This document shows, in pieces, positions 5,555 to 59,332 of a DNA stretch of 59,991 nt. Each line of letters starts with the position of its first letter. Positions within the stretch are counted from its first letter, which is position 1. Under the pieces are notes generated by a model, which saw only the letters and a list, made by a program, of their open reading frames with translations, was not told where the DNA came from and did no database searches. The stretch is from a virus, in the IMG/VR virus record IMGVR_UViG_3300038426_000231, positions 1 to 59,991 of that record. One strand, given 5' to 3'. Position numbers and translations under genes: made by a program.

Positions 5555-5686
5555 GCAAATAGATGATTCAGAAGAAGATTTGCGATGGTGCGTGACCGCT
5601 GTCACAATAAAATTCGAATCCGTAAGGCCGGTACGCGAAAAACTGTACCTATCTTCTTTGAATGCAGCACGCTAGAATGGATAGGG
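5555..5686 (+). promoter_or_regulatory. Leader-like segment before the repeat array
   Basis: This 132-base segment lies between the operon-ending hairpin and the first repeat and holds no convincing gene. It contains a small dyad GTGAC-CGCT-GTCAC (5592-5605) whose right arm, GTCACAAT, copies the first eight bases of the repeat. A TAGAAT hexamer at 5673-5678 would place a transcription start close to the first repeat, but no good -35 box is visible at normal spacing. Because the first four repeats downstream are identical and later ones decay, this is the side where a CRISPR leader would be expected. Confidence 0.4.
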
Positions 5687-6152
5687 GTCACAATGGAGTT
5701 GAAGTGCATCGAGCAGATGCAACTGATGTCCTGGTACAACACGTCTTTGCGGGACGGGGTCACAATGGAGTTGAAGTGCATCGAGCAGATGCAACGCTAC
5801 CCGAGCTGAACGGTACCCGCAGCCAACGGAGTCACAATGGAGTTGAAGTGCATCGAGCAGATGCAACGCGCGTCAGCCTCCGCAGTTTCTCAGCGGTTTC
5901 CGTCACAATGGAGTTGAAGTGCATCGAGCAGATGCAACCGCCACGAAGACAGTGCCGTATTGATCCACCGCAGTCGCAATGGAGTTGAAGTGCATCGAGC
6001 AGATGCAACGGGTGGCAGATACTGTGGGGCTGGCCCCATACTGTTGCAACGGAGTTGAAGTGCATCGAGCAGATGCAACATTGCTATAGCTTGCAGCTCA
6101 AGCAAAGGATCACCAGTCGCAACGGAGTCGAAGTGCATCGTGCAGATGCAAC
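5687..6152 (+). CRISPR. Seven-repeat CRISPR-like array, no cas genes
   Basis: Seven copies of a 37-nt repeat begin at 5687, 5759, 5831, 5902, 5973, 6043 and 6116. They start GTCACAATGG and end GCAGATGCAAC. Six unique spacers of 35, 35, 34, 34, 33 and 36 nt separate them. Repeats 1-4 are identical. Repeat 5 has one change, repeat 6 three, and repeat 7 four, so decay runs left to right as in a leader-to-trailer array. The 3' part of each repeat folds as TGCATC-GAGCA-GATGCA. In repeat 6 the ends are GTTGCA and TGCAAC, the terminal inverted pair familiar from several type V repeats. No Cas effector or adaptation gene is visible in the window. The array could work with a host effector in trans, act as decoy RNA, or be an unrelated repeat RNA. 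Confidence 0.75.
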
Positions 6153-6279: not shown

Positions 6280-6558
6280 GTGGACGAACCGAAGATACCA
6301 GAAGACCTGAAAGACATCTACAAAGAAGCACAGATGAATACCGAGTGCGAAGGAACTTTCAACGATGGGTTTGTAGCTGAACTGATCGAGCGCATCGCGA
6401 AGTTGCAGGCCGAGAGAGATGCACTGTTGGTGGCGCTGAAAGAAGCAAAGGGATGGACAACGAATCCTGTTGTGCTTATCAATACGCTTGCGCATCAAGA
6501 GTGTCTGGATATGCACGCTAAGGTTGATGCAGCAATTTTACAGACCAAGAGCCACTAA
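6280..6558 (+). CDS. Small coiled-coil protein between the two arrays
   Basis: This 92-residue protein starts at GTG 6280 behind GGGGAGG, a good ribosome binding site, which supports it as a real gene. It is acidic at the N-terminus (MDEPKIPEDLKDIYKEAQ). A heptad-like stretch around residues 29-55 (VAELIERIAKLQAERDALLV) suggests a short coiled coil. I do not recognise the family; similar small proteins are common in phage early regions. It separates the intact array from the decayed repeats, so it may have inserted into a once continuous array, or the flanking RNA may control it. Confidence 0.6.
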   Translation: MDEPKIPEDLKDIYKEAQMNTECEGTFNDGFVAELIERIAKLQAERDALLVALKEAKGWTTNPVVLINTLAHQECLDMHAKVDAAILQTKSH

Positions 6559-6564
6559 CCAACG

Positions 6565-6855
6565 ATGGAGTGTCGCGGCAAGTGCGCTGCATAAGCGCAA
6601 CGACTTCAATTGCAGCCAAAAGTGCATCGAGCAGATGCAACTTAGTTCGTCATTATGTATGCTGAATGTATTTATGTCTTAATTCAGTTTGAGTGCATCG
6701 AGCAGATGCAACCTGCTTCAGGGTTTCAAACCCGTCAGCCACCACGGATCTCAACGCAGGTAAAGTGCATCGTGAAGATGCAACTGGTCAATGTTCAAAC
6801 TCACGTTCTGAATCGTCAGTAGCAATACGGTCTAAGTGCATCGAACAGATGCAAC
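6565..6855 (+). CRISPR. Decayed second array with the same repeat
   Basis: Repeat-like 37-mers end at 6641, 6712, 6784 and 6855, keeping the 71-72 base period of the first array. The copy at 6676-6712 differs from the intact repeat at 6 positions; those at 6748-6784 and 6819-6855 differ at about 8 each. The copy ending at 6641 keeps only its 3' 22 bases. Spacer-like intervals are 34, 35 and 34 nt and unique. The hairpin stem TGCATC/GATGCA is kept in all four while loop bases vary (GAGCA, GTGAA, GAACA). A further look-alike ends at 6601 with stem TGCGCT/AGCGCA, a compensated version, but it is out of period. This looks like the old end of the first array, split off by a gene. Confidence 0.6.
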
Positions 6856-6894
6856 TGGTTATAGCTATCCACCTTTCCTTTCCATAAGCAGTTG

Positions 6895-7241
6895 GCCCCA
6901 CCGCAGGGCATTGCATGCAGCCACTGCCGATTCATCCTGCACAACGCTTCGCCCAGTCAAGGCGAAGCCTATTAGCCCCACCGCAGGGCATTGCATGCAG
7001 CAGACCTTCCGAGCCATTGCCACAACCAATAGCCCAGTCAAGGCGAAGCCCATTGGCCCCACCGCAGGGCATTGCATGCAGCCACTACTAGCTCATCCTG
7101 CCACAACGCTCTGCTCAGTCAAGCGAAGCAGTTAGCCCCACCGCAGGTGGTGCATGCAGCAGACTTTCCCAGCGGTTGCCACAACCGATAGCCCAGTCAA
7201 GGCGAAGCCCATTGGCCCCACCGCAGGTGGAGGTTGCATTT
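6895..7241 (+). repeat. 80-bp tandem repeat, about 4.3 units
   Basis: Units start at 6895, 6975, 7056, 7135 and 7215, each opening GCCCCACCGCAGG. Each full unit has a conserved block ending in TGCATGCAGC, a variable stretch of about 29-30 bases, and CAGTCAAGGCGAAGC-type sequence. Units 1 and 3 resemble each other in the variable part, as do 2 and 4, so the real duplication unit may be 160 bp. Hairpins recur: CTTCGCC-CAGTCAA-GGCGAAG in unit 1, and a shifted CTGCT/AGCAG stem in unit 3. Unit 4 forms CGGTTG-CCA-CAACCG. The period is not a multiple of three and open frames through it look accidental, so a structured RNA or a protein-binding repeat is more likely than protein. Confidence 0.7.
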
Positions 7242-7918: not shown

Positions 7919-8197
7919 ATGAAAAACCAAAACAATATCGGTCAGTGGGTCCGCAGAATCTTCAAAAAGGATTCTATCGATTTTGAAGAGGAAGTCGACC
8001 AGAATCTTGTTACGGATGAAAACTGCCGCAGCCATACGTATACTGTGACGCTCTATGATGAAGACATGCACGTAATCCGCACCTTCACCAAATGCATGGG
8101 TGCAGAAACCATCAACAACGGTGTGCAATTTGAAGATGAGTTCGGTTTGCTCAAATATTTTGAAGCGCCATGGATCAGCATTGAAGAACAACCCTAA
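7919..8197 (+). CDS. Hypothetical 92-residue protein
   Basis: I start this gene at ATG 7919 (MKNQNNIGQWVRRIFKKDS), because the extra in-frame residues upstream come from a duplicated AATGGCACTAAGA at the end of the previous gene. It is a small soluble mixed alpha/beta-looking protein with no membrane segment or motif I recognise. It follows the preceding gene by 26 bases, so the two are probably co-transcribed. Its stop overlaps by 4 bases the stop of the converging nuclease-like gene on the other strand. Function unknown. Confidence 0.55.
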   Translation: MKNQNNIGQWVRRIFKKDSIDFEEEVDQNLVTDENCRSHTYTVTLYDEDMHVIRTFTKCMGAETINNGVQFEDEFGLLKYFEAPWISIEEQP

Positions 8198-9105
8198 AGC
8201 TTCTCCACTACTTCAAACACCCCGCGTTGTGGTGCTCTGCCGCCATGGCAAGGCACGCGGAAGATGCACGGTCGTGGCCAGTCACACCCAGTCAACTGCG
8301 GGTCAGGCAAAGAGTCCAGATTCTGGACTTTTTCTAGTTTGCGTGCCGCCATCTCCAGAATAGCTTGGCGCGCAGATTTCTCCGGCACTGGAATGTCTAG
8401 GTTAAAACAAACATCTTGCAACACGCCATCCGCCAGCATGGCTTGCAGCCAATCGTGGGTTGAAATATCGTCAAAATCTTCGCGCCATACTTGTAGCCAG
8501 GTGTTTTTAAAACCTTCACTTACATCGTTTTTTTTGCGGAAGCGCAATTTTTTGTTTGCCGGATGTCTTAGTCCTTTGGCCCAAGGGGAGTGCCGTTTCC
8601 CATTGCGATTTTGGCCCAAAACAATCACCACCTGCTGCATCGGCAAACCATAAGCACAAACCTCTCCAAGAGAGAACCAGCTTCGGCATTCTGAATAGTG
8701 CCGGTCGTCGCTCCAACTGGTAACCAGCACAATGCGCCGCAAGTGCGATCCATCGGGAGATAGAAAGCAAGAAGAGCGCCAATTTTCAAGTTTTTCTGGA
8801 ACCTTCCAAGGCGATTCCGTTGGTTTGCGGATTGCGGAAGTAATCACGTCGGCTAAAGCAGAGAGGTGGCATACTTCGCCATGCACATCGTAGGAATCGG
8901 TATCCAGCCCTGGTTCAATCCCCATTCCATAGCATTCTTCGCCAGCCGCCTCGCCAAAGTCCGCACGGTCTGACAAAAGGCCAGCGCGGATCGCACGCTG
9001 CAACATGGTGTTTCCATCTATCTTGATGTGTTCCCAAAAACGCAGCCAATAGGCTTTGCGCGGGCATTGTTCAAAAGCAGTCAGCAGTTCGGCAGTCCCC
9101 AACAT
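8194..9105 (-). CDS. PD-(D/E)XK-like protein with Cas4-style cysteines
   Basis: The 303-residue protein begins MLGTAELLTAFEQCPRKAYW, the opening shared by RecB/Cas4/AddB-type PD-(D/E)XK nucleases. It ends with three spaced cysteines in CDWPRPCIFRVPC. One N-terminal cysteine plus three C-terminal ones is the pattern that holds a 4Fe-4S cluster in Cas4, AddB and Dna2. I cannot point to a clear catalytic E-x-K motif in the middle, so it may be divergent or inactive. I recall similar proteins of unknown role in Acidobacteriota. It lies alone on this strand, with a 15-bp palindrome just upstream (9118-9132) and another copy inside its 3' coding part (8314-8328), suggesting its own transcriptional control. 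Confidence 0.6.
   Translation of the reverse strand: MLGTAELLTAFEQCPRKAYWLRFWEHIKIDGNTMLQRAIRAGLLSDRADFGEAAGEECYGMGIEPGLDTDSYDVHGEVCHLSALADVITSAIRKPTESPWKVPEKLENWRSSCFLSPDGSHLRRIVLVTSWSDDRHYSECRSWFSLGEVCAYGLPMQQVVIVLGQNRNGKRHSPWAKGLRHPANKKLRFRKKNDVSEGFKNTWLQVWREDFDDISTHDWLQAMLADGVLQDVCFNLDIPVPEKSARQAILEMAARKLEKVQNLDSLPDPQLTGCDWPRPCIFRVPCHGGRAPQRGVFEVVEKL
8314..8328. promoter_or_regulatory. 15-bp palindrome GTCCAGATTCTGGAC, copy 1
   Basis: Perfect dyad GTCCAGA-T-TCTGGAC. It lies inside the 3' coding region of the nuclease-like gene. Other copies are at 9118-9132, 53013-53027 and 57467-57481, so a sequence-specific regulator is likely. Confidence 0.55.
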
Positions 9106-9190: not shown

Positions 9191-9228
9191 GCGCTAGTTT
9201 TGTCATCAAATGATGATAAAATAAGCGC
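9191..9228. promoter_or_regulatory. VapBC operator palindrome
   Basis: A 38-bp imperfect dyad: outer arms GCGCT/AGCGC, middle arms TTTT/AAAA, and inner arms TCATCA/TGATGA around a central AA. It ends 13 bases before the antitoxin start. VapBC complexes normally repress their own promoter through such dyads. Confidence 0.75.
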
Positions 9229-9241
9229 AATAGGAGGAACC

Positions 9242-9439
9242 ATGAGAACAACCGTTGTTCTGGACGATGATTTGGTAAAGACGGCGCAAGAATACAGTGG
9301 TGAAAAAGAGAGGACAGCGTTGTTGCGTTTGGCGCTCAAATCTCTGATTCATTTGGAAGCATCGCGGAGACTGGCCGCGCTTGGAGGCACTATGCCTGAA
9401 CTGGAAGATATTTTTCGCACCCGAGTTGATGCGCTATGA
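9242..9439 (+). CDS. vapB: VapB-type antitoxin
   Basis: This 65-residue protein begins MRTTVVLDDDLVKTAQEY, a ribbon-helix-helix N-terminus, with KERTALLRLALKSLIHLE as the helical part. It matches the small VapB antitoxin group (DUF2191-like) that neutralises a PIN-domain toxin and represses the operon. The ATG at 9242 follows AGGAGGAACC, a near-perfect ribosome binding site; the frame extends upstream through the operator but is unlikely to be translated. It overlaps the toxin gene by 4 bases (ATGA). On a phage such a module can aid maintenance or exclude competing phages. Confidence 0.85.
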   Translation: MRTTVVLDDDLVKTAQEYSGEKERTALLRLALKSLIHLEASRRLAALGGTMPELEDIFRTRVDAL

Positions 9440-9795
9440 TCCTTGCCGATACTTCAATTTGGATTGACTATCTTCGGGGCCGGAACCAGGAGATGGAGAA
9501 GCTACTAAATTCTGGCCAGATCATCATGCATCCATTTGTTCTCGCAGAGATTTCTCTTGGGTCGTTGCGGAACCGTGATAAGACACTCGCAACAATGGAA
9601 AAACTTTTGCAGATAGGAGTTGCGCAACTGAGCGAGGTACGGCAAATGATTGAGGCAAACGGACTTTATTCAAAGGGTATCGGCCTTGTCGATGCACACT
9701 TGATAGCTTCTTGTCTTTTGTCTCCTGGAATGCGCTTATGGACGCGTGACGCACGGCTCGAAGCTATCGCGCGCACCATGGGCATTTCTGTCTGA
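9436..9795 (+). CDS. vapC: VapC PIN-domain toxin
   Basis: This 119-residue PIN-domain protein is a VapC-type ribonuclease toxin, a family that cleaves tRNA or rRNA. The acidic metal-binding residues are recognisable: D5 in MILADTSIWIDYLRG, E38 in VLAEISLG, D85 region in GIGLVDAHLIAS, and D103 in LWTRDARL. Length and order are typical of full-length VapC. It overlaps the antitoxin gene by 4 bases and ends 2 bases before a converging late gene on the other strand. The toxin appears intact. Confidence 0.87.
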   Translation: MILADTSIWIDYLRGRNQEMEKLLNSGQIIMHPFVLAEISLGSLRNRDKTLATMEKLLQIGVAQLSEVRQMIEANGLYSKGIGLVDAHLIASCLLSPGMRLWTRDARLEAIARTMGISV

Positions 9796-28317: not shown

Positions 28318-30996
28318 CTAGTAATAACTGCACAGTCCGCCGTACAAGCCAGCCGCCGTACTATCCGCAGTTGAAGGTGCAGTGATAGTGATAATCCCAC
28401 CAGATGCGATAGATTTAGCGGATGAAATGGTGATCGTTCCGCTGGTTCCAGACGCCGCAAATACAATCGTTCCAAAACTCGTCCCGTTGTCATTGATGTT
28501 GAACGTCGTCGATGCCGTAGCAGCAGTTTTAAGGGTAAACTTCGATGTGCAAGTAATCCCCAATTGTGTGGATGATCCACCCGAAGGAATCGTTTGGGCC
28601 AGGGTACTGGTGATATACACCACTGCTTGGGACGCAGTGTATGCAGTATTCGACTCATCATCAAACCAGAAGGGATGGTTCATAACGCTTACTGAGCAGC
28701 TTGATCCCAGAGTGCATGTAACTCCACTCACTGTGATAGAGTCATAAGCCAGATCAGTATTTGTCACAAGGCCCGTTGCCGTAAAAGACGAAGTCACCGT
28801 TAATCCGGAGACTGAAGGAGATGTTGCCAGCACCACATCCCCACTCCCCGTCGTCGCTAGATCTCCAAGCGTGCCACCGTTGTCATACAAAATATAGCCT
28901 GTTGTACCGCTTGATACTGTAGTTGTGCCTACTGTGATTCCCGTTGCTGCCGCCGTTACCGTGCAACTCGATCCAAGCGTGCAGGTCTGCCCATTTACCG
29001 TTGTCGAAGCATTGGTAAGATAAGTGTTGGTGATATTCCCTGACCCAATAGCTGTAAGAACTTGGGCGCTGGTGGATGCAGTGTCCGCCGAGCCACCATT
29101 TGCGTATCGGATTCCTGTAAGCGTAGTGGTTCCCGTTCCGCCGTAACCAGCACCGATTGCCGTTCCATTCCACACTCCTGTTCCGATGGTTCCTACAGAT
29201 GTAAGGCTGGAACTAACTACGGTAGAATTCAATGTTGTTCCGCTCAACGTTCCTGCTGGGGCAATCACAACGTTGGTGCTCGCTGCTGTAAGTTGTCCTT
29301 CTGCGTTAACGGTAAAGGATGGAATCGCAGTTGACGATCCATAACTTCCTGCTGTTACTGCCGTGCTAGCCAAGTCAGTGCTAGTTACTAAACCAGTTGC
29401 GGTAAAAGAAGATGTAACCGTCAAACCAGAAACTGAAGGGGATGTTGCCAGCACCACATTCCCACTCCCGGTCGTCGCTAGATCACCAAGTGTGCCGCTG
29501 TTGTCGTATAAAATATACCCACTCGTGCCACTGGTCACCGTCGTTGTGCCTACTGTAATTCCCGCTGCTGTTGCCGTCACCGTGCAGCTCGACCCCAGTG
29601 TGCAAGTCTGCCCATTTACCGTCGTTGAAGCATTTGCCAAATAAGTATTGGTAATGTTTCCCGATCCAATTGCCGTTAGTATTTGAGAACTTGTGGATGC
29701 AGTATCTGCCGATCCATCATTTGCGTATCGAATACCTGTGAGGGTAGAAGTCCCCGTTCCGCCGTAACCAGCACCAATGATGGTTCCTTGCCATACACCC
29801 GTACCAATGGTCCCTACCGACGTAAGACTAGAACTGACCACGGTCGAATTAAGCGTTGTCCCCGTCAGCGTCCCTGCAGCCGCCGTTGCGGTACAGCTTC
29901 CACCGAGTGTACAGGTCTGCCCATTCACCGTCGTAGAAGCATTGGCAAGATCAGTATTTGTCACGAGTCCGGTCGCCGTAAAAGACGAAGTTACCGTTAA
30001 TCCGGAGACTGAAGGAGATGTTGCCAGCACCACACTTCCACTCCCCGTCGTCGCCAAATTTCCCAGTGTGCCGCCGTTGTCATACAAAATATAACCCGTT
30101 GTGCCACTCGATACTGTCGTTGTGCCTACCGTGATTCCTGTTGCTGCCGCCGTCACCGTGCAGCTCGATCCAAGCGTACAAGTCTGCCCATTTACCGTTG
30201 TAGAAGCATTCGAAGCTGCTGCGCCCACAGTGTTGTAACTCACAGTTAATGCGGATGCTCCATTGAATGTCGATCCTGATGCCCCACCTGAACCGCCACT
30301 GTTGAAGGTCAAGGAATTTGGCGTTTCCGCCGTTACTGTGCAGCTCGATCCCAAAGTACAAGTCTGGCTATTCACTGCGGTAGAATCGTAGGAAAGTGCA
30401 GCAATGGGAATGGTTGTACTCGCCGTCACAGCACTGCTGCCATTCGCATAAAGATAACCTGTCAAACTTGTGATGGTCATACCCGGTAAGACTAAATCTC
30501 CGGTTAGCGTGCCACCAGACAAATTCAACTTGGCATTGAGAGCAGTTTGCAAATCTGTCTGATTACTAAGAGTTCCGGTAATTCCTCCCCACACTGTACT
30601 TGAAAGTTGCGAAGAAGGATACAATCCCGTCAGAGTGACAGAAGTAGGATAAATGTTGGGAGAAATACCTCCACTCAATACAATGTCATAACCCAGATTA
30701 ATTGCCGCAAAAAAAATCCATTGGCCATTGGCTGTAGCCGTAAATGGATTCGTCAAAGACGTTTCCAAGGCATCTGCATAGATTGTTGCCAAAGTTGTTG
30801 TCCCGGTCAAATAAACTGTTACTGTGCAATCTGGAATAAGTTCTTGCTGATAATTACTCGACTGCAATCCTGAAGTCACTGCTTGAGTCGCGCCTAGAAC
30901 ACAATAATTTGTGATTGCGGCAACCTGTGCGGAAGCCGTAATGGGAAACATCATCAACACCGCAAGTACAAACAAAAAACATATAATTTTTTTCAT
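28318..30996 (-). CDS. Exported fibre-like repeat protein, 892 residues
   Basis: The N-terminus MKKIICFLFVLAVLMMFPIT-ASAQ is a clear Sec signal peptide cleaving after ASA. A short domain (QVAAITNYCVLGATQAVTSG..) follows, shared with the next gene upstream. Then come repeated modules of about 85-90 residues containing TTVNGQTCTLGSSCTVTA, ITVGTTTVSSGTTGYILYD and LATSPSVSGLTVTSSFTATG. The paired Cys in each module could form disulfides outside the cytoplasm. The C-terminal 130 residues differ and may be the head domain. AAGGTGTGAA precedes the ATG. Composition says tail fibre; the signal peptide says secreted or surface protein. Confidence 0.75.
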   Translation of the reverse strand: MKKIICFLFVLAVLMMFPITASAQVAAITNYCVLGATQAVTSGLQSSNYQQELIPDCTVTVYLTGTTTLATIYADALETSLTNPFTATANGQWIFFAAINLGYDIVLSGGISPNIYPTSVTLTGLYPSSQLSSTVWGGITGTLSNQTDLQTALNAKLNLSGGTLTGDLVLPGMTITSLTGYLYANGSSAVTASTTIPIAALSYDSTAVNSQTCTLGSSCTVTAETPNSLTFNSGGSGGASGSTFNGASALTVSYNTVGAAASNASTTVNGQTCTLGSSCTVTAAATGITVGTTTVSSGTTGYILYDNGGTLGNLATTGSGSVVLATSPSVSGLTVTSSFTATGLVTNTDLANASTTVNGQTCTLGGSCTATAAAGTLTGTTLNSTVVSSSLTSVGTIGTGVWQGTIIGAGYGGTGTSTLTGIRYANDGSADTASTSSQILTAIGSGNITNTYLANASTTVNGQTCTLGSSCTVTATAAGITVGTTTVTSGTSGYILYDNSGTLGDLATTGSGNVVLATSPSVSGLTVTSSFTATGLVTSTDLASTAVTAGSYGSSTAIPSFTVNAEGQLTAASTNVVIAPAGTLSGTTLNSTVVSSSLTSVGTIGTGVWNGTAIGAGYGGTGTTTLTGIRYANGGSADTASTSAQVLTAIGSGNITNTYLTNASTTVNGQTCTLGSSCTVTAAATGITVGTTTVSSGTTGYILYDNGGTLGDLATTGSGDVVLATSPSVSGLTVTSSFTATGLVTNTDLAYDSITVSGVTCTLGSSCSVSVMNHPFWFDDESNTAYTASQAVVYITSTLAQTIPSGGSSTQLGITCTSKFTLKTAATASTTFNINDNGTSFGTIVFAASGTSGTITISSAKSIASGGIITITAPSTADSTAAGLYGGLCSYY

Positions 30997-32530
30997 TTCA
31001 CACCTTGCTTAAGTCTCTCCAACATTTACTGACCGCAAAAATAGTTAACGGAATATTCACTACCTGCTGTCCACGCGTTGCCTGTTGGTGCAACTATGGC
31101 TATATAGGCAGCAGCCTCGGTCAGATATGCTGGAACATACACTCCAGTAGCAAGAGTTTCGTTAGTTACGTTATACACACAATTTACGATATTCCCATAA
31201 GGCGAAGCAAACGTAACTGTAAAAACGGTGGCATTTGCTGAAGGAGAAGTCCCCACTGTGACATTCACAACTCCGTTCATGTCCGAACAGTGAAAACCTG
31301 CGCAGGTTGCAGTCCCGCCCGTTCCCGCTCCCGTACCAACAGTTATTGTAGGTGTGGATGATATACCAACTAAATGTGTGGCCGAAACTACTGTGCTGAT
31401 ACTCCAGACGCCCGCACTAACTTGTGCCACTCCCGTGCTTGCACTGGAGTCGATGCCCGTGCCGCCATATGCTGCGCCAATTAGCGTACCGTTCCATACA
31501 CCAGATGTAATCGTCCCCACAGAAGTCAAGCTCGAACTAACCACCGTAGAGTTCAGCGTCGTACCCGTCAGAGTTCCCGCAGCCGCCGTCACCGTGCAGC
31601 TCGATCCCAAAGTACAGGTTGATCCATTCACCGTCGTAGAAGCATTGGCAAGATCAGTATTTGTCACGAGTCCGGTCGCCGTAAAAGACGAAGTTACCGT
31701 TAATCCGGAGACTGAGGGGGATGTTGCCAGCACCACACTGCCACTCCCCGTCGTCGCTAGATCTCCAAGCGTGCCACCGTTGTCATACAAAATATAGCCT
31801 GTCGTGCCACTCGATACTGTCGTTGTACCTACCGTGATTCCTGTTGCTGCCGCCGTCACCGTGCAGCTTCCACCTAGTGTGCAGGTCTGCCCATTTACCG
31901 TCGTAGAAGCATTGGCAAGATCGGTATTTGTTACAAGGCCAATCGCCGTAAAAGACGAAGTTACCGTTAATCCGGAGACTGAGGGGGATGTCATCAGCAC
32001 AACATTTCCTGATCCAGTTGTGCCTAGATTGCCAAGCGTACCGCTGTTATCGTATAAGATATACCCACTCGTGCCACTCGATACTGTGGTTGTGCCAACA
32101 GTTATTCCTGTTGCTGTTACCGTGCAGCTTCCGCCCAAAGTACAAGTCTGTCCATTCACCGTTGTCGAAGCATTGGTAAGATCAGAATTTGTTACCAGAC
32201 CGGTCGCTGTAAAGGACGAAGTTACCATTAATCCGGAGATTGAGGGTGATGTTGCCAGCACCACACTTCCACTCCCCGTCGTTGCCAAATTCCCCAAAAT
32301 GCCAGCATTGTCATACAGAATGTAGCCTGTTGTGCCATTTGATACTGTGGTTGTGCCTACAGAGATTCCCGTTGCGGCCGCCGTTACCGTGCAGCTTCCA
32401 CCTAGTGTGCAAGTCTGCCCATTCACCGTCGTTGAATCGTAGGAAAGTGCGGCAATGGGAATGGTTGTACTCGCCGTTACTGCGCTACTGCCATTCGCAT
32501 AAAGATAACCTGTCAAACTTGTGAGGGTCA
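28735..32530 (-). repeat. Near-identical fibre modules shared by two genes
   Basis: A module of roughly 260 bp recurs in the 892-residue gene (around 28.74-29.0, 29.37-29.63 and 29.92-30.2 kb) and in the 803-residue gene (around 31.63-31.89, 31.89-32.15 and 32.15-32.42 kb). Phrases such as GTTAATCCGGAGACTGA appear almost unchanged. These copies are long enough to recombine within and between the genes. Confidence 0.7.
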
Positions 32531-33437
32531 TACCTGGCAAAATTAAATCTCCAGTCAGCGTGCCACCAGACAGCGGCAGATAATTTCCCACTGTAGCCCC
32601 CACAAAAGCATCCGTGGCCACATCCGTAGAAGTATCACCCGTAGTTTGTGTTGTTGCGGTAGTGCCATCAGCCAAGGCTGTGCTAATGCTCCACACGCCA
32701 GCATCAACTTGTGCTACTCCCGTGCTTGCACTGGAGTTGATGCCCGTGCCTCCATATGCCGTATCGCACACAATTCCTGTAGTGGAACCGCATCCTGAAG
32801 AATAACTTGCCCCCGGAAACAATCCAGTTAATGTCACAGGAACAAGATAAATATTCGGGCTTACACCCCCACTGAGTTTAACGTCATATCCTTTACTGGT
32901 TGCTGCATAAAATAGCCAGGAACCATCACTATTGGCCGTAAATGGATTCGTCAATGCCGTACTGCTCTTGTCTGAATAAATCGTCGCCAGCGCAGGTGTC
33001 ATCACCGCAGAAACTGTCGCTGTGCCGGAGCATGTCGCCGTACCATTACTCAAAGTCGCCGTCGTTGGGGTCGTCGCATAGATGCCACCAGCCGTAATGA
33101 CAAACGCAGTGTTAGCGGCAATCGTGTTAGTTCCTGTCAATGTAATCGTTGCGGTTCCATCCGTGGTTCCTCCAACAAATGTCGCAACGCAAGTTTTACC
33201 ACTCGTCCCTGTAACCGTTCCGCCACTTGTGTACGTCGCGCTTTTGACGGCGTAATAACCATCCAAATAGACCGTGACCGTGCATTGCGGAACAATTCCC
33301 TGCAAATCATTTGAAGATTTCAAACCTGAAACAGATGCTTGTGTAGCACCAAGAACGCAATAATTCGTAATTGCGCCAACCTGCGCAAAGGCCGAGCCAG
33401 AAAATAGAATCAGCAAAATCAGTAATAATTTCTTCAT
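31026..33437 (-). CDS. Exported fibre-like repeat protein, 803 residues
   Basis: I start at ATG 33437, giving MKKLLLILLILFSGSAFAQ, a textbook Sec signal peptide. The frame is open 41 codons further upstream, but that overlaps the previous gene. The following domain QVGAITNYCVLGATQASVSG is homologous to that of the 892-residue protein. An inserted beta-type domain with paired Cys spans about residues 55-170, then four to five TTVNGQTCTLGGSCTVTA-type modules, and a different C-terminal domain with VTFASPYGNIVNCVYNVTNE. Two paralogues with different ends suggest alternative binding heads. Confidence 0.75.
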   Translation of the reverse strand: MKKLLLILLILFSGSAFAQVGAITNYCVLGATQASVSGLKSSNDLQGIVPQCTVTVYLDGYYAVKSATYTSGGTVTGTSGKTCVATFVGGTTDGTATITLTGTNTIAANTAFVITAGGIYATTPTTATLSNGTATCSGTATVSAVMTPALATIYSDKSSTALTNPFTANSDGSWLFYAATSKGYDVKLSGGVSPNIYLVPVTLTGLFPGASYSSGCGSTTGIVCDTAYGGTGINSSASTGVAQVDAGVWSISTALADGTTATTQTTGDTSTDVATDAFVGATVGNYLPLSGGTLTGDLILPGMTLTSLTGYLYANGSSAVTASTTIPIAALSYDSTTVNGQTCTLGGSCTVTAAATGISVGTTTVSNGTTGYILYDNAGILGNLATTGSGSVVLATSPSISGLMVTSSFTATGLVTNSDLTNASTTVNGQTCTLGGSCTVTATGITVGTTTVSSGTSGYILYDNSGTLGNLGTTGSGNVVLMTSPSVSGLTVTSSFTAIGLVTNTDLANASTTVNGQTCTLGGSCTVTAAATGITVGTTTVSSGTTGYILYDNGGTLGDLATTGSGSVVLATSPSVSGLTVTSSFTATGLVTNTDLANASTTVNGSTCTLGSSCTVTAAAGTLTGTTLNSTVVSSSLTSVGTITSGVWNGTLIGAAYGGTGIDSSASTGVAQVSAGVWSISTVVSATHLVGISSTPTITVGTGAGTGGTATCAGFHCSDMNGVVNVTVGTSPSANATVFTVTFASPYGNIVNCVYNVTNETLATGVYVPAYLTEAAAYIAIVAPTGNAWTAGSEYSVNYFCGQ

Positions 33438-33447
33438 CGCAATGCCC

Positions 33448-34686
33448 CTAGATTTTGGTTGTCCAAGTTCCACTGATGCAAGTCGTAGCATGTCCATCTT
33501 GGCTAAAAACCCATACTCCACTCGGCGAACAACTGCCGCTAGGAGCCGTCGCCGGGCCAAAAATAGATTGCGTCGTCGGATAGATCGCTGATCCGCTTAC
33601 TGACGGTACGATTGCGCCTGGAGATAGATACGTATAAGCTGTACCGCATGAAATTCCGTTGTTCATAATCGTTCCATCACCAATAAAATTTGCAGTGGAA
33701 CTCGTTGCTCCATCAGCGCAATTAATGTTGGAACCACTTCCTCCATTGGTTAAATTAGTTTCTTCTATAGATAATTTTCCGCCTGCGCTCATGTTAATGT
33801 TAGGCGAGGACAAAGAATTTGTAAGAGTACTATGATTTTTGATGATTACTGTTGATCCACTTCCTTGCGAGGTAATTGTTCCAGCCAAAGTCACACCGTT
33901 GAATGAGACTGTGGCGCTACTTCCAACATCGATAACTACCGCTCCTGTAAAAGTAGTGTCTCTAAATTCTCCGGTACCTGTTATTGTCAAATTCCCGTTA
34001 AGTGATCCTCCATATCTCGACCATGTTGATGAACTGGTAATCGCCCCTGATGTAAACAAATAAAAAACAACTGTTGGACAAGATATTGCCAGCGTCCCAG
34101 AAACAATTGTGTACGTAGCTTGATTGCCATAAATTTTCAATCCCGTAATGTTAGATGGCAACGTGGGATTTAAATCCGCATACGTAGTCCATGGCGCAAT
34201 AATCATTACATAGGGTTTTGCTTGGGTCATTGCTGCATAGGCTTGCGAAAAACTGGTATAGGGTTTATCTGGCGATCCGTCTGGCGTACCTGAATAGGAA
34301 CTGTTTGAGTTAACAAAAAAAACAGTGCTTGGATTCGTTGTCAAATTGGCAATCGGAACTTCACTGATCGCGCTGATCGCTGTACTTCCGGAATAGGCTG
34401 CAATTTGTCCTGCAGTTCCCGCCGCAATCGTTCCTCCTGAAGCCGTTACAGCTAGATTGCCATTAGCATCACATGCCAAGGCATACCATTGATTGTTATT
34501 AAATCCATAGAGTGCCATACCCGGAGGGTTGGTTGGACTTACCATTCCTGCAGCGCTTGCAACCGGTATCCATCCGGCGGTAGCATTCAAGCAATACGCA
34601 CCAGCGGGTATTGTATTACTTGGTTGCCCGAACAAGATTTCTCGCCCGGTAACAAGAAGAAAAAGTAAAAAAAACATTTTTTTCAT
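33448..34686 (-). CDS. Exported beta-solenoid-like protein
   Basis: The 412-residue protein (ATG 34686) begins MKKMFFLLFLLVTGREILFG, a signal-peptide-like segment. A domain with AGAYCLNATAGWIPVASAAG follows, then PDGSPDKPYTSFSQAYAAM (about 125-143), the typical start of pectate-lyase-like beta-helix proteins. The next ~180 residues have the spaced hydrophobic rhythm of a beta-solenoid. Such folds occur in phage tailspikes that cut polysaccharides, but no catalytic residues can be named. The start is supported by an ATGA-like overlap with the upstream gene. Confidence 0.65.
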   Translation of the reverse strand: MKKMFFLLFLLVTGREILFGQPSNTIPAGAYCLNATAGWIPVASAAGMVSPTNPPGMALYGFNNNQWYALACDANGNLAVTASGGTIAAGTAGQIAAYSGSTAISAISEVPIANLTTNPSTVFFVNSNSSYSGTPDGSPDKPYTSFSQAYAAMTQAKPYVMIIAPWTTYADLNPTLPSNITGLKIYGNQATYTIVSGTLAISCPTVVFYLFTSGAITSSSTWSRYGGSLNGNLTITGTGEFRDTTFTGAVVIDVGSSATVSFNGVTLAGTITSQGSGSTVIIKNHSTLTNSLSSPNINMSAGGKLSIEETNLTNGGSGSNINCADGATSSTANFIGDGTIMNNGISCGTAYTYLSPGAIVPSVSGSAIYPTTQSIFGPATAPSGSCSPSGVWVFSQDGHATTCISGTWTTKI

Positions 34687-36163: not shown

Positions 36164-36505
36164 TTAGAACTGTCCTACAAAAGCAGCGATCTGGAAAGTC
36201 ATTGTTGAAAGATTCCCACTAGCCCGAGCGCCAGTTGACGCAACGTAATAGTAGAGATTCCATGTTTGCCGCGTTCCAGATCCAGAAGGGCCAACGATTG
36301 CATACGTACTGCCATCCGTCGACATCACACCACCACACAATGCATCAATGTAGTAGTTCGGCAGCGCAAGCGTTACCGAATCAGCGGCACCAGCAACATA
36401 GGCTGTTGGTCCCGTGCCAATGCCTACAAACAGCCCGCGCCGTCCAACAAATTCCGGATAGAGCGGACCAGCTCCCGTGCCTTTTCCAAGTGCTGTGAGA
36501 ATCAT
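36164..36505 (-). CDS. Small capsid-associated protein
   Basis: The 113-residue protein (ATG 36505 after GGAGGAGTGATC) is Gly/Ala-rich and beta-type, with GPLYPEFVGRRGLFVGIGTG near the start. A GTG two codons upstream is also open. It lies between the decoration-like and connector-like genes. Probable minor capsid or stabilising protein. Confidence 0.6.
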   Translation of the reverse strand: MILTALGKGTGAGPLYPEFVGRRGLFVGIGTGPTAYVAGAADSVTLALPNYYIDALCGGVMSTDGSTYAIVGPSGSGTRQTWNLYYYVASTGARASGNLSTMTFQIAAFVGQF

Positions 36506-36536
36506 GATCACTCCTCCGCGTGTTACCGCGGTTGTC

Positions 36537-37148
36537 TTACTCCTGGAATGCCGGAGCCGTCAGTTGGCAAACAACCAGAGTTGCTGCTACTGGTGTTTGT
36601 ACAGCCACACCAACCATTGCGGGCGTTTCAGTCTGTGCGGTGAGATCATCAAGACCCGAACTGGTGATCGTCAAAATGTCGCCAATTTGGATCGTGCCCG
36701 AATTTTGCAGAGGCGTCTTCAAGAGCACAGTTGCATCGCCCAATTCCTGCACAAAACCAAAATTGCCAGGTGTCACGGTGTTCAAAAAGACAGCTTTGCG
36801 CGGTGAATTCAGAGTCAAAGCTTTGTCGTAGCTCGTCACATTGTTGATCGGGCCAGCATAGTTCGAACTCGTCAAACTCTTGAACATCGCGATTGTGCCA
36901 GTAGCCACATTGCCAGGAGTTGCACCCGAGTCAACCTGCACAAAGCGATAGCGCCCAGAAAGCAAGGTACCGACAGACGTGTTCGAAAGCGACTTTGCTT
37001 CTTCCCCTGTCAGATCGAAATAATCACCGATGTTGAGTCCGCCAGCAGCGAACGGCAGGCCAGTACGAACATCGGTGAGCGCCGTCGGCGAAGTAAAATT
37101 CGCTGAGTTGAGCGACAACCAAGTGGGTAGAATTTGCTGAAGCGGCAT
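36537..37148 (-). CDS. Head-decoration-like protein
   Basis: The 203-residue protein sits directly downstream of the major capsid gene, the usual location of a head decoration or stabilisation protein. Its sequence is beta-rich and Thr/Ala/Gly-rich with SGRYRFVQVDSGATPGNVAT in the middle and TPAMVGVAVQTPVAATLVVC at the end. AAGGAGAAGCAAG precedes its ATG. Role inferred from position and composition. Confidence 0.6.
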   Translation of the reverse strand: MPLQQILPTWLSLNSANFTSPTALTDVRTGLPFAAGGLNIGDYFDLTGEEAKSLSNTSVGTLLSGRYRFVQVDSGATPGNVATGTIAMFKSLTSSNYAGPINNVTSYDKALTLNSPRKAVFLNTVTPGNFGFVQELGDATVLLKTPLQNSGTIQIGDILTITSSGLDDLTAQTETPAMVGVAVQTPVAATLVVCQLTAPAFQE

Positions 37149-55239: not shown

Positions 55240-56226
55240 ATGGCAACCATGACTATGACCGCCGCAATGCCCGACGCCTCCAAGCTCATCAACCGTTTCC
55301 GCACATGGGCCGATGCCCTGCAAAACCAGATTGATCACTTGGGCCGTCCCATGACAGAGAACCCGACGCCAAAGAGAAACAAACAGTATCAGATGCGTAT
55401 GCACGATTGCCGCAACCTGGAGCGCACACAAAAGGCATTGCGCGCCCTGGCCGATGCCCACGAACGCGGAACCGTTCCCACCGAGTTGGCCGAACTCAAA
55501 AAGAAAGACGAAATACGCCTGCTGGTGCGCAAGTCTATTTCTGGTGAGGGTGGTTATTACTCCTGCATTGAGTCAAAAGACTACGCCGAGACCTCGCCCG
55601 TTGCCCGCTTGCTGCAATCCATGATTGAGGGCAATTCCGCCGAGCGCACCGAGCGGGAGCGCTTGCGCAAAATCGGCGAGCTAGAGGCCGAAATCAAACT
55701 CTCCAGTATTCCCGGATACTTCCCCACACAAGCCCCTGTGATTGAAATCATGCTGCGCCGTGCGCGCATTGAGCCCGGCATGAAGGTACTAGAGCCTGAA
55801 GCCGGAAGCGGGCACATTGCCGACGACGTGCGTGCGGCGGTTCCTGGCGTCATCCTGGAAGTGATTGAGCCGGTGTACAAGCTGCGCGAACTCCTGCGCC
55901 TGAAGGGGTACAAGCTGGTGGGCGATGACTTCCTGCAGTTATCGTGCGCCGATCTGGGCCAGTATGACCGCATTGTGATGAATCCGCCTTTTGAACGGCA
56001 GCAGGATCTTGAACACATCCGCCATGCCTACAAGTTTCTTGCCCCGCGCGGCGTGCTGGTCTCTGTTCTCAGTCCCAGTTTTGAATTCCGCAGTGACCGC
56101 AAGAGCACCGAGTTTCGCGCTTGGCTCGACGAGGTAAACGCCACGTGGGAAAACCTGCCCGATGGTGCTTTCAAGGCTAGCGGTACCGGCGTCAGCACGC
56201 GGCTGCTGCTGATTGAGCGCAGCTAG
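55240..56226 (+). CDS. Adenine-type DNA methyltransferase
   Basis: The 328-residue protein (ATG 55240) has a class I SAM-methyltransferase core: VLEPEAGSGHIADDV (about 183-197) is motif I, EVIEPVYKLRELL is motif II, and MNPPFERQQDLEH (about 246-258) is the NPPF catalytic motif of N6-adenine or N4-cytosine DNA methyltransferases. The N-terminal 100 residues (QYQMRMHDCRNLERTQKALR) form a separate helical region. No restriction partner is visible, so self-protection or gene regulation are likely roles. It follows an early leader element and hairpin. Confidence 0.8.
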   Translation: MATMTMTAAMPDASKLINRFRTWADALQNQIDHLGRPMTENPTPKRNKQYQMRMHDCRNLERTQKALRALADAHERGTVPTELAELKKKDEIRLLVRKSISGEGGYYSCIESKDYAETSPVARLLQSMIEGNSAERTERERLRKIGELEAEIKLSSIPGYFPTQAPVIEIMLRRARIEPGMKVLEPEAGSGHIADDVRAAVPGVILEVIEPVYKLRELLRLKGYKLVGDDFLQLSCADLGQYDRIVMNPPFERQQDLEHIRHAYKFLAPRGVLVSVLSPSFEFRSDRKSTEFRAWLDEVNATWENLPDGAFKASGTGVSTRLLLIERS

Positions 56227-56254
56227 ACAAGCACTCCCACGCCCACGGTCCCCT

Positions 56255-56272
56255 TTTGATAGGGGACCAAAA
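56255..56272 (+). promoter_or_regulatory. Early leader element, copy 6
   Basis: TTTGATAGGGGACCAAAA, a variant with GGGGACC. No hairpin like the others follows; the gene starts 33 bases later. Confidence 0.55.
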
Positions 56273-56304
56273 TTTCAAACGAGAAAACTTTGAGGGATAG
56301 ACCC

Positions 56305-56553
56305 ATGAGCTACACACAGGCCATGAAGTGGCAACGCACCCACCGCAAGGGAACCCGGCAGCCGGTGATCATGTCGACCGGCTCCGGATTCTGGCCTGCG
56401 TATGGCTGGCTGAAAAACGATTTTTGGCCTTATCTTGAACGGTGCAAGGCGGCTGGTATCGAACCGATGGAATGCCAAGCCTATTACAACGCAGGTTTGA
56501 GAGGTGGTGCGGGTGACCCGCGCTTGACCGACGCAGAACAGACAGAGGAGTAA
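56305..56553 (+). CDS. Small early protein, 82 residues
   Basis: ATG 56305 (MSYTQAMKWQRTHRKGTRQP). It has an aromatic centre (FWPAYGWLKNDFWPYLERCK) and an acidic C-terminus. TGAGGGATAG precedes it. Function unknown. Confidence 0.6.
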   Translation: MSYTQAMKWQRTHRKGTRQPVIMSTGSGFWPAYGWLKNDFWPYLERCKAAGIEPMECQAYYNAGLRGGAGDPRLTDAEQTEE

Positions 56554-56558
56554 CCACA

Positions 56559-56780
56559 ATGCCACGCAAACACAATGCCGAACCGGGCGCGCTCATGCAC
56601 GCATCCACTGAAGAAGTTCTCTGGATCTACAGCATGGGGAAGCGCTTTCAGGTTCGCGCCATCACCACCAGCGATGAACAGTCGAACGCTTTCATGAACT
56701 CGCATAGGGATACGGCCCTTATCGCCTGTTATGGACCGTTTCAGATCATCGCCAACGTGTACCAAGGTGTCCGGGAATAA
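56559..56780 (+). CDS. Small early protein, 73 residues
   Basis: Begins MPRKHNAEPGALMHASTEEV; GAGGAG lies eight bases ahead. It contains a beta-type VLWIYSMGKRFQVRAITTSD. Five bases separate it from the previous gene. Function unknown. Confidence 0.6.
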   Translation: MPRKHNAEPGALMHASTEEVLWIYSMGKRFQVRAITTSDEQSNAFMNSHRDTALIACYGPFQIIANVYQGVRE

Positions 56781-56847
56781 GCCCGAACACCTTAGAAAAC
56801 GGACTGCAACTCCCAGCCGGTGCCCAGCACCAGAAAGGTTTTTCTCC

Positions 56848-57456
56848 ATGGCTCTTCTGGCCACACTTCCCGCCCCATTCAGTGAACTGGAGCCGTCCCG
56901 CCATCCTGGACGCCCGCCGCTCAGCCCGGAAGAACGCGAAGCACGCCGGCAAGCGCGCAATCAAGCTCGCCGTGACCAGCGCCGCGCCGTCCGCGAAGCC
57001 AAAACCCCACCAGTGCCCGTGGAACCCGCGCCCCTTCCTCTACCAGCTCCACCGCCCCCGCCTACGCCTGCCAGCGTTGCGCCTACGCCCCGCGTCTATT
57101 TCTCCCTCGGCCAGCGCGCCCGCGCCCTGCTCGGCTTTGGTGTAGGCGCATTCGTTCCCTTGGCAAGCTATACCGTCGTGCACGTGGAAGTCGATCAACG
57201 GCCTGGCATGTGGTTTCTGGTGGCCGGTGGTCTTGTTTATTCGTCCATCAGCGTCTATATGTGGGCCGTCAAAATGTTTCATTGGAAGCTGCGCGCCCTC
57301 GGCTTTGTCGCACTGCTGGAATGCACGCTCACATTTTGTGAAATTCGCTGGCTCAGTCTTGCCGGACTCGTCATTTTGATGCTGTTGAATGCTCTCAATG
57401 CGGCCGTTGCCCTGCAACAGTCTGAACCACCGACGATTCCCAAAAGCGCCGACTAG
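56848..57456 (+). CDS. Pro-rich multi-pass membrane protein
   Basis: ATG 56848 gives 202 residues with an Arg/Glu-rich and then Pro/Ala-rich N-terminal cytosolic part (about 1-82) and about four hydrophobic segments (around 90-112, 121-141, 147-165 and 168-190). A GGTGC/GCACC hairpin sits before the start. It resembles no family I can name. A membrane position next to a membrane diguanylate cyclase invites a link, but this is only proximity. Confidence 0.6.
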   Translation: MALLATLPAPFSELEPSRHPGRPPLSPEEREARRQARNQARRDQRRAVREAKTPPVPVEPAPLPLPAPPPPPTPASVAPTPRVYFSLGQRARALLGFGVGAFVPLASYTVVHVEVDQRPGMWFLVAGGLVYSSISVYMWAVKMFHWKLRALGFVALLECTLTFCEIRWLSLAGLVILMLLNALNAAVALQQSEPPTIPKSAD

Positions 57457-57466
57457 CAGGCGCATA

Positions 57467-57481
57467 GTCCAGATTCTGGAC
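57467..57481. promoter_or_regulatory. 15-bp palindrome, copy 4
   Basis: Perfect GTCCAGATTCTGGAC, placed 173 bases before the cyclase gene and just after the membrane protein stop. Confidence 0.6.
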
Positions 57482-57499
57482 AGGCATCTCTGAATTTAA

Positions 57500-57513
57500 T
57501 GCACCACAGTGCG
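57500..57513. promoter_or_regulatory. TGCACCACAGTGCG dyad before cyclase gene
   Basis: One mismatch from the perfect dyad at 49684-49697. It lies 19 bases after palindrome copy 4. The cyclase region therefore carries two unrelated operator-like sites. Confidence 0.6.
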
Positions 57514-57564
57514 GCTATGACTTGACACTGCGGTAAAGAAAGAAGAAAGTTCTAAAAGGGTCTA

Positions 57565-57582
57565 TTTGATAGAGGACCAAAA
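57565..57582 (+). promoter_or_regulatory. Early leader element, copy 7
   Basis: TTTGATAGAGGACCAAAA, followed by AACCGGCAGAACACGCCATA and a GGAGCACAGCTCC stem before the cyclase start. Confidence 0.6.
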
Positions 57583-57639
57583 TTCTAACCGGCAGAACAC
57601 GCCATAGCCGGAGCACAGCTCCAAGAATCGGAGAATGTT

Positions 57640-58344
57640 TTGGAAAACCATCGCAATTACCGACAGCAAGTGTTCGCCAGCATTCCGCCGTTTCTGGCAA
57701 TCGTTGCTTTGGTGTATGTGGGAAACATTCTTTATTGGTCTTACCGTCAACGTCGAAAATTAGAACGGGAAAAAGCGGAATTGTTGCGGACTTCGATCAA
57801 GCTGCGCAAGCAAGCTGAATGCGATCATCTAACCGACCTGTGGAATCGCCGCATCATTGTTGAGCGTCTACAGCAAGAGGTAGAACGGTCTTACCGTGAC
57901 AATACGCCGCTCAGTGTAATTATGGTGGATCTCGATCACTTCAAGCGGGTCAACGATACCTTTGGCCATCCCGCTGGTGATCAGGTACTGCGGCAGGTAG
58001 GCGCAATCTTTAAAAATTCTCTGCGCTCCTACGATGGCGCAGGCAGGTATGGCGGAGAAGAATTTCTTTTGATTCTTCCTGGCGTCAATCTGCTGAATGC
58101 GGTTGCGCGTGCGGAACAGTTGCGTCAATCGATCGAGTCGGCCCGCTTTCGATATAACGGCACTTCCATTGCCATGACCGCCAGTTTTGGCGTCGTTTCT
58201 GATTTTCCTACTGATCCAGCAGAATTGATCCACGCTGTGGATGCCGCGCTTTATCAAGCCAAAAACAGCGGACGCAACTGCATCATGACGATCAAGCAGA
58301 AATCATCTTCTTTTGATCTTCCGCAGGATTCTATCTCTCTTTGA
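57640..58344 (+). CDS. Membrane-anchored diguanylate cyclase (GGDEF)
   Basis: The 234-residue protein has one membrane helix (about residues 12-34), a charged coiled linker (36-60) and a complete GGDEF domain. DLDHFKRVNDTFGH (97-110) carries the metal Asp97 and Asn105, GDQVL (113-117) the guanine-binding Asp, RYGGEEF (136-142) the active site, and RSYD (129-132) an intact inhibitory I-site. Asp at 114 favours c-di-GMP over hybrid cyclic dinucleotides. Likely start is TTG 57640, seven to eight bases after GGAGA; an ATG at 57635 is out of frame. A phage-encoded cyclase is rare; it could alter host biofilm, motility or CBASS-type signalling. Confidence 0.88.
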   Translation: MENHRNYRQQVFASIPPFLAIVALVYVGNILYWSYRQRRKLEREKAELLRTSIKLRKQAECDHLTDLWNRRIIVERLQQEVERSYRDNTPLSVIMVDLDHFKRVNDTFGHPAGDQVLRQVGAIFKNSLRSYDGAGRYGGEEFLLILPGVNLLNAVARAEQLRQSIESARFRYNGTSIAMTASFGVVSDFPTDPAELIHAVDAALYQAKNSGRNCIMTIKQKSSSFDLPQDSISL

Positions 58345-58358
58345 TAGAGGACCAAAAA
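58340..58358 (+). promoter_or_regulatory. Early leader element, copy 8
   Basis: TTTGATAGAGGACCAAAAA. It overlaps the stop codon of the cyclase gene and precedes the Cys-rich protein by 36 bases. Confidence 0.6.
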
Positions 58359-58393
58359 TTTAAACCCATTTTCCATTGAAAAGGAAGAACGCT

Positions 58394-58825
58394 ATGAGCG
58401 TCGAAAAAATTACCAAAGTTGTTAACCGTTGCGTCTGTGAATTGCCCGACTGTATTGGAAAAGGCCGACCGTGGGACTCCAAGGATGAGAAAATTCCCAA
58501 GCGTTGCTCTTGGTGCAAGCGCACCGGCTGGAATGGTCAAGACCGCCGCCGCAAAGATGGACAATACGAATGGGTGCGCGTGCGGCAGTGCTCCACCTGC
58601 GGCGGTACCCAATGGATTCAGAACGCCGAGGGCATTGAAGTCTGTGCGCATTGCTCCGCTGCTGCCCTCCAGCCTTCGCCCGCCGCCGCACCGGCAAAGA
58701 AGACCGCAGCTGCTCACACTCCTGGCTGTAAATGCACGCTCTGTCAAATCAAGCGCGCCAAAAAGTCCAAACCCGCAGTCGTCAAGCTGCCCAAACCACG
58801 CAAGGTCAAGAGGATTGAAGAATGA
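58394..58825 (+). CDS. Multi-zinc-ribbon protein
   Basis: ATG 58394 behind AAGGAAGAACGC gives 143 residues with CSWCKRTGWNG (about 33-43), CSTCGG (about 62-67), CAHC (about 80-83) and CKCTLC (about 110-115), and a basic Ala/Lys tail. Several zinc ribbons in a small basic protein suggest nucleic acid binding, for example transcription or RNA polymerase control. Its stop overlaps the next start as ATGA. Confidence 0.65.
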   Translation: MSVEKITKVVNRCVCELPDCIGKGRPWDSKDEKIPKRCSWCKRTGWNGQDRRRKDGQYEWVRVRQCSTCGGTQWIQNAEGIEVCAHCSAAALQPSPAAAPAKKTAAAHTPGCKCTLCQIKRAKKSKPAVVKLPKPRKVKRIEE

Positions 58826-59046
58826 ACATGAAACCGATTCTTCGCATGCTTTCGACCGAGGATTTTCTAAAGATGCTCACCGCCTGCCAGAACGCACGGG
58901 AGCGCTTCTACCTGCAGCTCGGCCGCAATGACCCGGATTTTGAGTACCACATCGATCTGCCGACAGAAGATGGAAAAGGATTGATCGAACCACTCGTCGA
59001 TATGCCTGCATGGCTCGACGATGAAACGAGGTTTCCCAATGGCTGA
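58822..59046 (+). CDS. Small hypothetical protein, 74 residues
   Basis: Begins MNMKPILRMLSTEDFLKMLT, helical then acidic, ending WLDDETRFPNG. GAGGATTGAAG precedes it and the start overlaps the zinc-ribbon gene stop. Function unknown. Confidence 0.58.
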   Translation: MNMKPILRMLSTEDFLKMLTACQNARERFYLQLGRNDPDFEYHIDLPTEDGKGLIEPLVDMPAWLDDETRFPNG

Positions 59047-59332
59047 AAATCCGCAAGGCGTTCGTATTTCGGTATCAAAGTACAAGAATCTTGCCGGTGA
59101 CCTCGCCGAGAATCTTTCCGGCCAGAACCCGGTTTTCTACGGACTTTATCGCAATGGGGAAGGCTGCTGCCTGGAAGAAGAAAAACTTTATGCCTACGAG
59201 CCTCAGCATGATTATCGCTCCGGCGCAATTGTGATGAGGGATGGAACACGCATGGCCATCTCTCAGGCCAAGGCACGTCAAGCTGGATGGAATGACCTGG
59301 CCGAAAAAATGGCGTTGAAAGGGATTCAATGA
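59039..59332 (+). CDS. Small hypothetical protein, 97 residues
   Basis: ATG 59039 (MAENPQGVRISVSKYKNLAG) with CGAGGTTTCC ahead of it. It overlaps the preceding gene by eight bases and its stop overlaps the recombinase start as ATGA. It contains a CCLEEEKLYAYE stretch. Function unknown. Confidence 0.6.
   Translation: MAENPQGVRISVSKYKNLAGDLAENLSGQNPVFYGLYRNGEGCCLEEEKLYAYEPQHDYRSGAIVMRDGTRMAISQAKARQAGWNDLAEKMALKGIQ

Follow-up and report, generated by a model that had tools for sequence, protein, structure and literature searches.

Four repeat units at positions 6605-6855 of the window (the whole stretch of 59,991 nt analysed, virus record IMGVR_UViG_3300038426_000231) keep an intact hairpin while their 5' halves have changed, and are separated by a small gene from seven similar repeats. 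The locus raises the questions of what these repeats are, why the hairpin is unaltered, and whether the distal units are still of use. The finding of the first-pass annotation did not name a CRISPR array; the effector lies outside the window. The distal units are very probably the old, leader-distal part of a CRISPR array that a large soil phage carries together with its own V-M-like system; the conserved hairpin would be the crRNA handle, and the guides would be directed against competing phages.

Array layout and identity of the repeat

The features of the window at this locus were as follows.

5630-5686 (+): leader of the array, containing GGTACGCG (5630-5637) and the -10-like box TAGAAT (5673-5678)
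5687-6152 (+): array segment 1, seven 37-nt repeats and spacers; the four leader-side repeats are identical and the later ones drift
6280-6558 (+): 92-aa ORF between the array segments
6605-6855 (+): array segment 2, four repeats of older appearance with the predicted crRNA handle hairpins intact
6621-6641 (+): handle hairpin of relic 1, with its 5' half destroyed, adjoining the apparently inserted gene
6692-6712 (+): handle hairpin of relic 2
6764-6784 (+): handle hairpin of relic 3, loop GTGAA
6785-6818 (+): spacer after relic 3; its match is in a likely structural gene on phage contig IMGVR_UViG_3300050034_000025
6835-6855 (+): handle hairpin of relic 4, loop GAACA, the last repeat of the array
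6892-7227 (+): repeated element of about 80 nt, directly 3' of the array

The 37-nt repeat was present in eleven copies between 5687 and 6855, seven in segment 1 and four in segment 2, with a repeat-to-repeat spacing of 70-73 nt, which leaves about 34 nt of unique sequence between neighbouring repeats. The last 21 nt on the 3' side of the repeat, AGTGCATC-GAGCA-GATGCAAC, make up a hairpin of 6 bp closed by a 5-nt loop, and a scan allowing up to 3 mismatches found 11 copies of this half in the window (0.00 expected), which rules out chance. Each unit of segment 2 terminates in AGTGCATC-GNNNA-GATGCAAC. The handles at 6621, 6692, 6764 and 6835 were spaced 71, 72 and 71 nt, in agreement with the four relics with a 71-72-nt period and a retained 3' half described by the first-pass annotation. 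The extent that it gave, 6565-6855, held at its 3' end; the recognisable repeat begins at 6605 (handle at 6621), not at 6565.

The motif GGT[TA][CA]GCG was located 54-57 nt 5' of the first repeat in 7 arrays from 7 different records, most of them also with TATAAT-like boxes close to the repeat. The leader motif precedes segment 1, which is therefore the leader side, segment 2 being distal. Leader and gap sequences gave no convincing homologue with blastn. The GTG start of the ORF at 6280-6558 is preceded by the ribosome-site-like sequence GGGGAGG; its 92-aa product was assigned to no confident family and had no homologue among the array phages examined.

Positions 31479-59991 of the window matched positions 1-28513 of IMG/VR contig 3300017940_000554 (G019) at 99.98% identity (28.5 kb), and a further contig, G016, matched the window at 99.99%; both represent the phage of the window itself. 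G019 extends about 40 kb past the end of the window and contains further features of this phage:

28676-30251, 30629-31222, 36509-37027 and 56212-56873 of G019: further arrays
56950-59184 of G019: 745-aa effector, with an array 77 nt downstream

All arrays of the window phage together hold about 60 repeats. The element of about 80 nt at 6892-7227 of the window recurs in G019 at 28545-28624, 36272-36470 and 67888-68049, and is placed directly 3' of three arrays of this phage and at one site elsewhere. It contains a GCTTCGCC/GGCGAAGC hairpin that folded no better than shuffled sequences (z -1.1), and was not found in the other phages examined.

The exact handle was detected in 27 stretches from about 17 viral contigs, many of which have long arrays, and once in the cellular genome set, at an isolated site in an Ideonella genome and not in an array. 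Most spacings in the array contigs were 70-74 nt, and 356 different spacers were collected, unique and mostly of 33-37 nt. Direct repeats, unique spacers of similar length and a leader are the features of a CRISPR array. Searches of the array DNA against phage records gave weak matches only, and Rfam yielded no match at the gathering threshold. High divergence is unusual for CRISPR repeats, and the divergence found here would favour tandem structured RNAs or protein-binding sites of another kind. That the repeats are not CRISPR is nevertheless extremely improbable given the spacer lengths, the leader, the adjacent cas12 and the cas4-cas1-cas2 genes of relatives; the cas neighbourhood already contradicts it.

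Handle conservation and history of the distal units

Single-strand hairpins of the repeat handle had a folding energy of -8 kcal/mol (z about -4 to -5). The loops of the four distal units were, in order, GAGCA, GAGCA, GTGAA and GAACA, and the six-pair stem with its flanking AG and AC was the same in all four. Relative to the consensus of the upstream array, 31 of 64 positions were changed in the 5' half, 3 of 20 in the loop, and none of 64 in the stem and flanks, which bears out the earlier observation of variable loops on an untouched stem.

Pairing was evaluated in 242 units that had been picked solely on AGTGC...GCAAC and on period, whether or not they paired. Of the 726 cells for the three inner stem pairs, 720 were paired (shuffles: mean 640, maximum 659), and the stem types comprised ATC/GAT, ACT/AGT, ACC/GGT and GCT/AGC. 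In an alignment of 60 sequences, 97.5% of the cells were paired and 45 cells had changed on both sides (18 in shuffles); the 242-unit test is the fair one, because the repeat set of this alignment was partly filtered on pairing. The covariation counts are inflated by relatedness, yet compensated stems of several types are found in different phages. The results support selection on the RNA structure of the handle, as the first-pass annotation had proposed, and do so with more force than the window by itself could; the covariation check that it suggested for the repeats, here extended to related phages, revealed stem changes by compensation.

A pseudoknot of the 5' half with the loop was also considered and was given no support by covariation (62.5% of cells paired, with hardly any double changes). 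In one phage (L083 1697-6337), an effector has arrays on both flanks, with the loop TGTTC rather than GNNYA and with GGAAC upstream; the upstream GAAC and the loop GTTC are disposed as for a pseudoknot.

The distal units lie behind the apparently inserted gene and far from the leader, the first lacks its 5' half, and units with broken stems occur in several arrays of the family. These observations would agree with dead relics that have lost transcription or processing and whose stems are intact merely through recency. This reading is unlikely: all 64 positions of stem and flanks are unchanged, whereas changes affect 31/64 positions of the 5' half and 3/20 of the loop; double changes maintain stem pairing across the family; and the spacer of the third distal unit retains its match to a phage gene, with a TTC PAM.

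Compared with repeats in the other arrays of the phage, the 5' halves at 6692, 6764 and 6835 had 3, 1 and 3 mismatches; compared with segment 1, each had 6. Being closer to the other arrays than to segment 1, they resemble an earlier form of the repeat more than the product of free drift. The destroyed 5' half of the unit at 6621, beside the gene, is as expected of a break point. The description of segment 2 as a decayed continuation therefore holds in part: the 5' half is lost in the unit at 6621 alone, and the other three 5' halves resemble those of the other arrays.

The statement that the gene at 6280-6558 parts two portions of an array agreed with the presence of the ORF and with the destroyed 5' half of the adjoining unit. 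The comparison with a relative free of the intervening gene, also proposed earlier, was provided by G001, which has at the corresponding place (1554-1981) an array unsplit by such a gene. Segments 1 and 2 likely share a common origin, which is unproven because no relative has their spacers. Separate arrays of independent origin that later came near each other are the less probable but still serious alternative, given the unshared spacers and the three distal 5' halves that are closer to other arrays of the phage than to segment 1. Against it, the two segments agree in strand and period, no leader motif was seen ahead of segment 2, G001 has one array without such a gene at the corresponding locus, and another array pair of the window phage is likewise parted by a different small gene. 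The latter, at G019 30252-30628 (minus strand), is BrnA-antitoxin-like and is positioned between two array segments similarly to the 92-aa gene of the window.

A rise in repeat divergence from leader to trailer was clear in the arrays of the window, L083, G029 and L131, and was absent or reversed in other arrays of the family. Related phages with otherwise identical arrays had spacers replaced in mid-array (G012 40894 vs. G001 62296; G012 13756 vs. G001 88904-88833), so that array change is not confined to the leader end.

Effector, adaptation genes and spacer targets

The effector gene is absent from the window record itself and is linked to it through the overlapping contig G019. Its product has RuvC I-III and Zn motifs, as expected of type V, and PF07282 was matched above the cut-off in 3 of the 19 array contigs, G019 and G016 among them. 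Six distinct effectors were collected (745-774 aa), 54-70% identical to that of the window phage and each with an array downstream. The nearest relatives of the effector were Cas12u1 in PADLOC (E 2e-26), with PADLOC Cas12f nearly as good (E 2e-25), and Cas12m in the PDB (E 6.5e-13). In a fold search, the four best matches of the effector model were all Cas12m, with Cas12j far lower; these matches count as support only, the mean pLDDT of the model being 58. As judged from these sequence and model matches, V-M (Cas12m), a subtype formerly called V-U1 or C2c4, is the nearest known relative of the effector, membership itself being unproven. The RuvC residues were E-E-D in the window phage and one relative, and D-E-D in four relatives, in which they would permit cleavage. 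The effector had no match in 50,697 phage records, and only TnpB-like or partial matches in plasmids. A CRISPR-like repeat was observed in Pelobacter propionicus plasmid pPRO1 (L230 6217-6473) beside a distant relative of the effector annotated only as a zinc ribbon protein.

The order cas12-cas4-cas1-cas2-array was found in two relatives, G020 (78.6 kb), which also carries the major head gene of the family, and the contig of L131; their Cas1 proteins belong to the I-C kind. In G000, G016 and G019 no cas1 was found; there the array starts directly after the effector. The only well-supported pairing in the family trees joined the effectors of the window phage and G020 (95/99 support). Because the G020 effector is the sister of that of the window phage, loss of the adaptation module in the latter would be the simpler reading, although its genome may be incomplete. 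Of the arrays beside cas1-cas2, that of G020 has 11 identical repeats, and that of L131 has the same 5' half in 8 leader-end repeats, with variation at the trailer end; arrays remote from cas1-cas2 were mostly divergent. G004 has 22 identical repeats at its contig end, with no cas1 in its record.

Known phage mini-arrays employ host Cas proteins (PMC11656645), and the I-C kind of Cas1 in the relatives could similarly point to a host-encoded effector, with the arrays acting as mini-arrays or as decoys against host CRISPR. We regard this as very improbable: the window phage has an effector gene of its own, next to which lies an array with the same repeat, its arrays are long, and the exact handle had a single, isolated match outside any array in the cellular genome set.

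Other genes of the window were also noted. A 303-aa protein (8194-9105, minus strand) with an N-terminal TAFEQCPRKAYW and three C-terminal cysteines is reminiscent of Cas4/RecB nucleases; it had no family match, its structure model was unusable (pLDDT 32), and it is conserved beside arrays in G001 (71%) and G015 (56%). Two small genes at 9200-9795, the second like a VapC-type PIN toxin (MILADTSIWIDYLRG), have 50-65% homologues in other array phages. Long, mutually matching proteins with internal repeats (267-nt period at 31582-32436) are encoded at 28318-33560, and are possibly variable tail-type proteins.

The spacer at 6785-6818 matched positions 13835-13802 of IMGVR_UViG_3300050034_000025 (G006) in 30 of 34 bases, with the first 10 perfect and a TTC PAM, the matched site being in a likely structural gene of another phage. 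A spacer of G012 matched G013 6939-6906 in 29 of 34 bases, also with a TTC PAM, over the start of a gene reading like a primase zinc-binding protein. Both protospacers were significant (E 2e-6 and 1.9e-5; best of 5 shuffled controls, 2.5e-4). They were the only convincing ones for 356 spacers and neither was perfect; TTC at both fits a TTN PAM (n = 2), a number of matches too small to settle either PAM or purpose. An exact scan for the spacer target found one contig alone, and spacers gave no additional convincing match in 59 further contigs with the targeted gene. Each of the two target phages itself has a repeat of this kind, which suggests a common host.

Proposed working and comparison with known systems

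In the proposed working, the array would be transcribed from the leader promoter, and the effector would bind each handle, composed of AG, the 6-bp stem with its 5-nt loop, and AC. The array RNA would be cut 5' of the handle, leaving the 5' half of an old repeat free to change; old units would stay useful, since of the repeat only the handle would be part of the mature crRNA. The crRNA may then direct the effector to the DNA of competing phages at a TTN PAM. Transcription block would be the likelier outcome, rather than DNA cutting, because the nearest relatives (Cas12m) bind DNA without cutting it (PMC11013384, PMC10442227) and because Glu occupies RuvC-I in the window phage, although four relatives keep D-E-D. 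The Cas4-Cas1-Cas2 module, kept in relatives, would have added the leader-end repeats last, which would explain their identity, and the small gene would have split the array later. The window phage probably carries dozens of guides, some apparently against rival viruses, with a presumable benefit in phage competition.

A broader interpretation is possible but tentative, and a little short of probable: a type V lineage of its own, carried by phages and sister to V-M, with an I-C-like adaptation module in some members, in which several long arrays spread over the genome form a guide arsenal acting on rival phages by DNA binding, and in which members that have lost the module keep old guides with their handles under selection.

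Type V effectors on phages are already known, and a landfill survey of viral Cas12m-like effectors found acquisition genes with none of them (PMC12607003). The phage family described here has a complete operon in some members and an apparent loss in others. Old arrays that keep the 3' handles while the 5' halves change separate the needs of the repeat for acquisition from those for the guide RNA. For a Cas12m-like handle, the stem and loop variants that occur naturally offer a comparative series ready for use, and phage-on-phage CRISPR competition becomes testable.

The system resembles V-M in its single Cas12 effector, with best profile, PDB and fold matches to Cas12m, and in the register of its handle, which is that of the Cas12m2 crRNA (AG, a 6-bp stem with its 3' strand at -8 to -3, then A(-2) and C(-1); PMC10442227). 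The TTC at the protospacers is compared with the TTN PAM of V-M effectors (PMC11013384). It differs from V-M in effector length (745-774 aa vs. about 596-600 in Cas12m, beyond the compact size), in the loop (5 nt vs. 8 in Cas12m2), and in the change of the RuvC-I Asp to Glu in the window phage. For the loop-to-5'-half pseudoknot of the Cas12m2 crRNA, covariation gave no support here. V-M has been recorded as more frequent in plasmids and as occurring in some prophages (PMC11656645), and the present system is phage-borne with several dispersed arrays. With other phage type V systems (Cas12j, Cas12l and the landfill Cas12m-like effectors; PMC12607003) it shares a phage-encoded compact type V effector with arrays; Cas12j was far lower in the fold search, and the landfill effectors are without adaptation genes, unlike the two members here with cas4-cas1-cas2. 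Cas12f (V-F) effectors have 400-700 aa and a tracrRNA, and the effectors described here are outside that size range. As in viral mini-arrays, spacers match other viruses, probably of the same host, but mini-arrays contain just one or two spacers and depend on the Cas proteins of the host (PMC11656645), whereas the arrays here are long and accompanied by their own effector. As in ICP1-type phage CRISPR, which directs a type I-F multi-subunit effector against a host island (PMC11656645), a full system including acquisition is carried on phages, here the relatives of the window phage, and it is of type V instead of type I-F.
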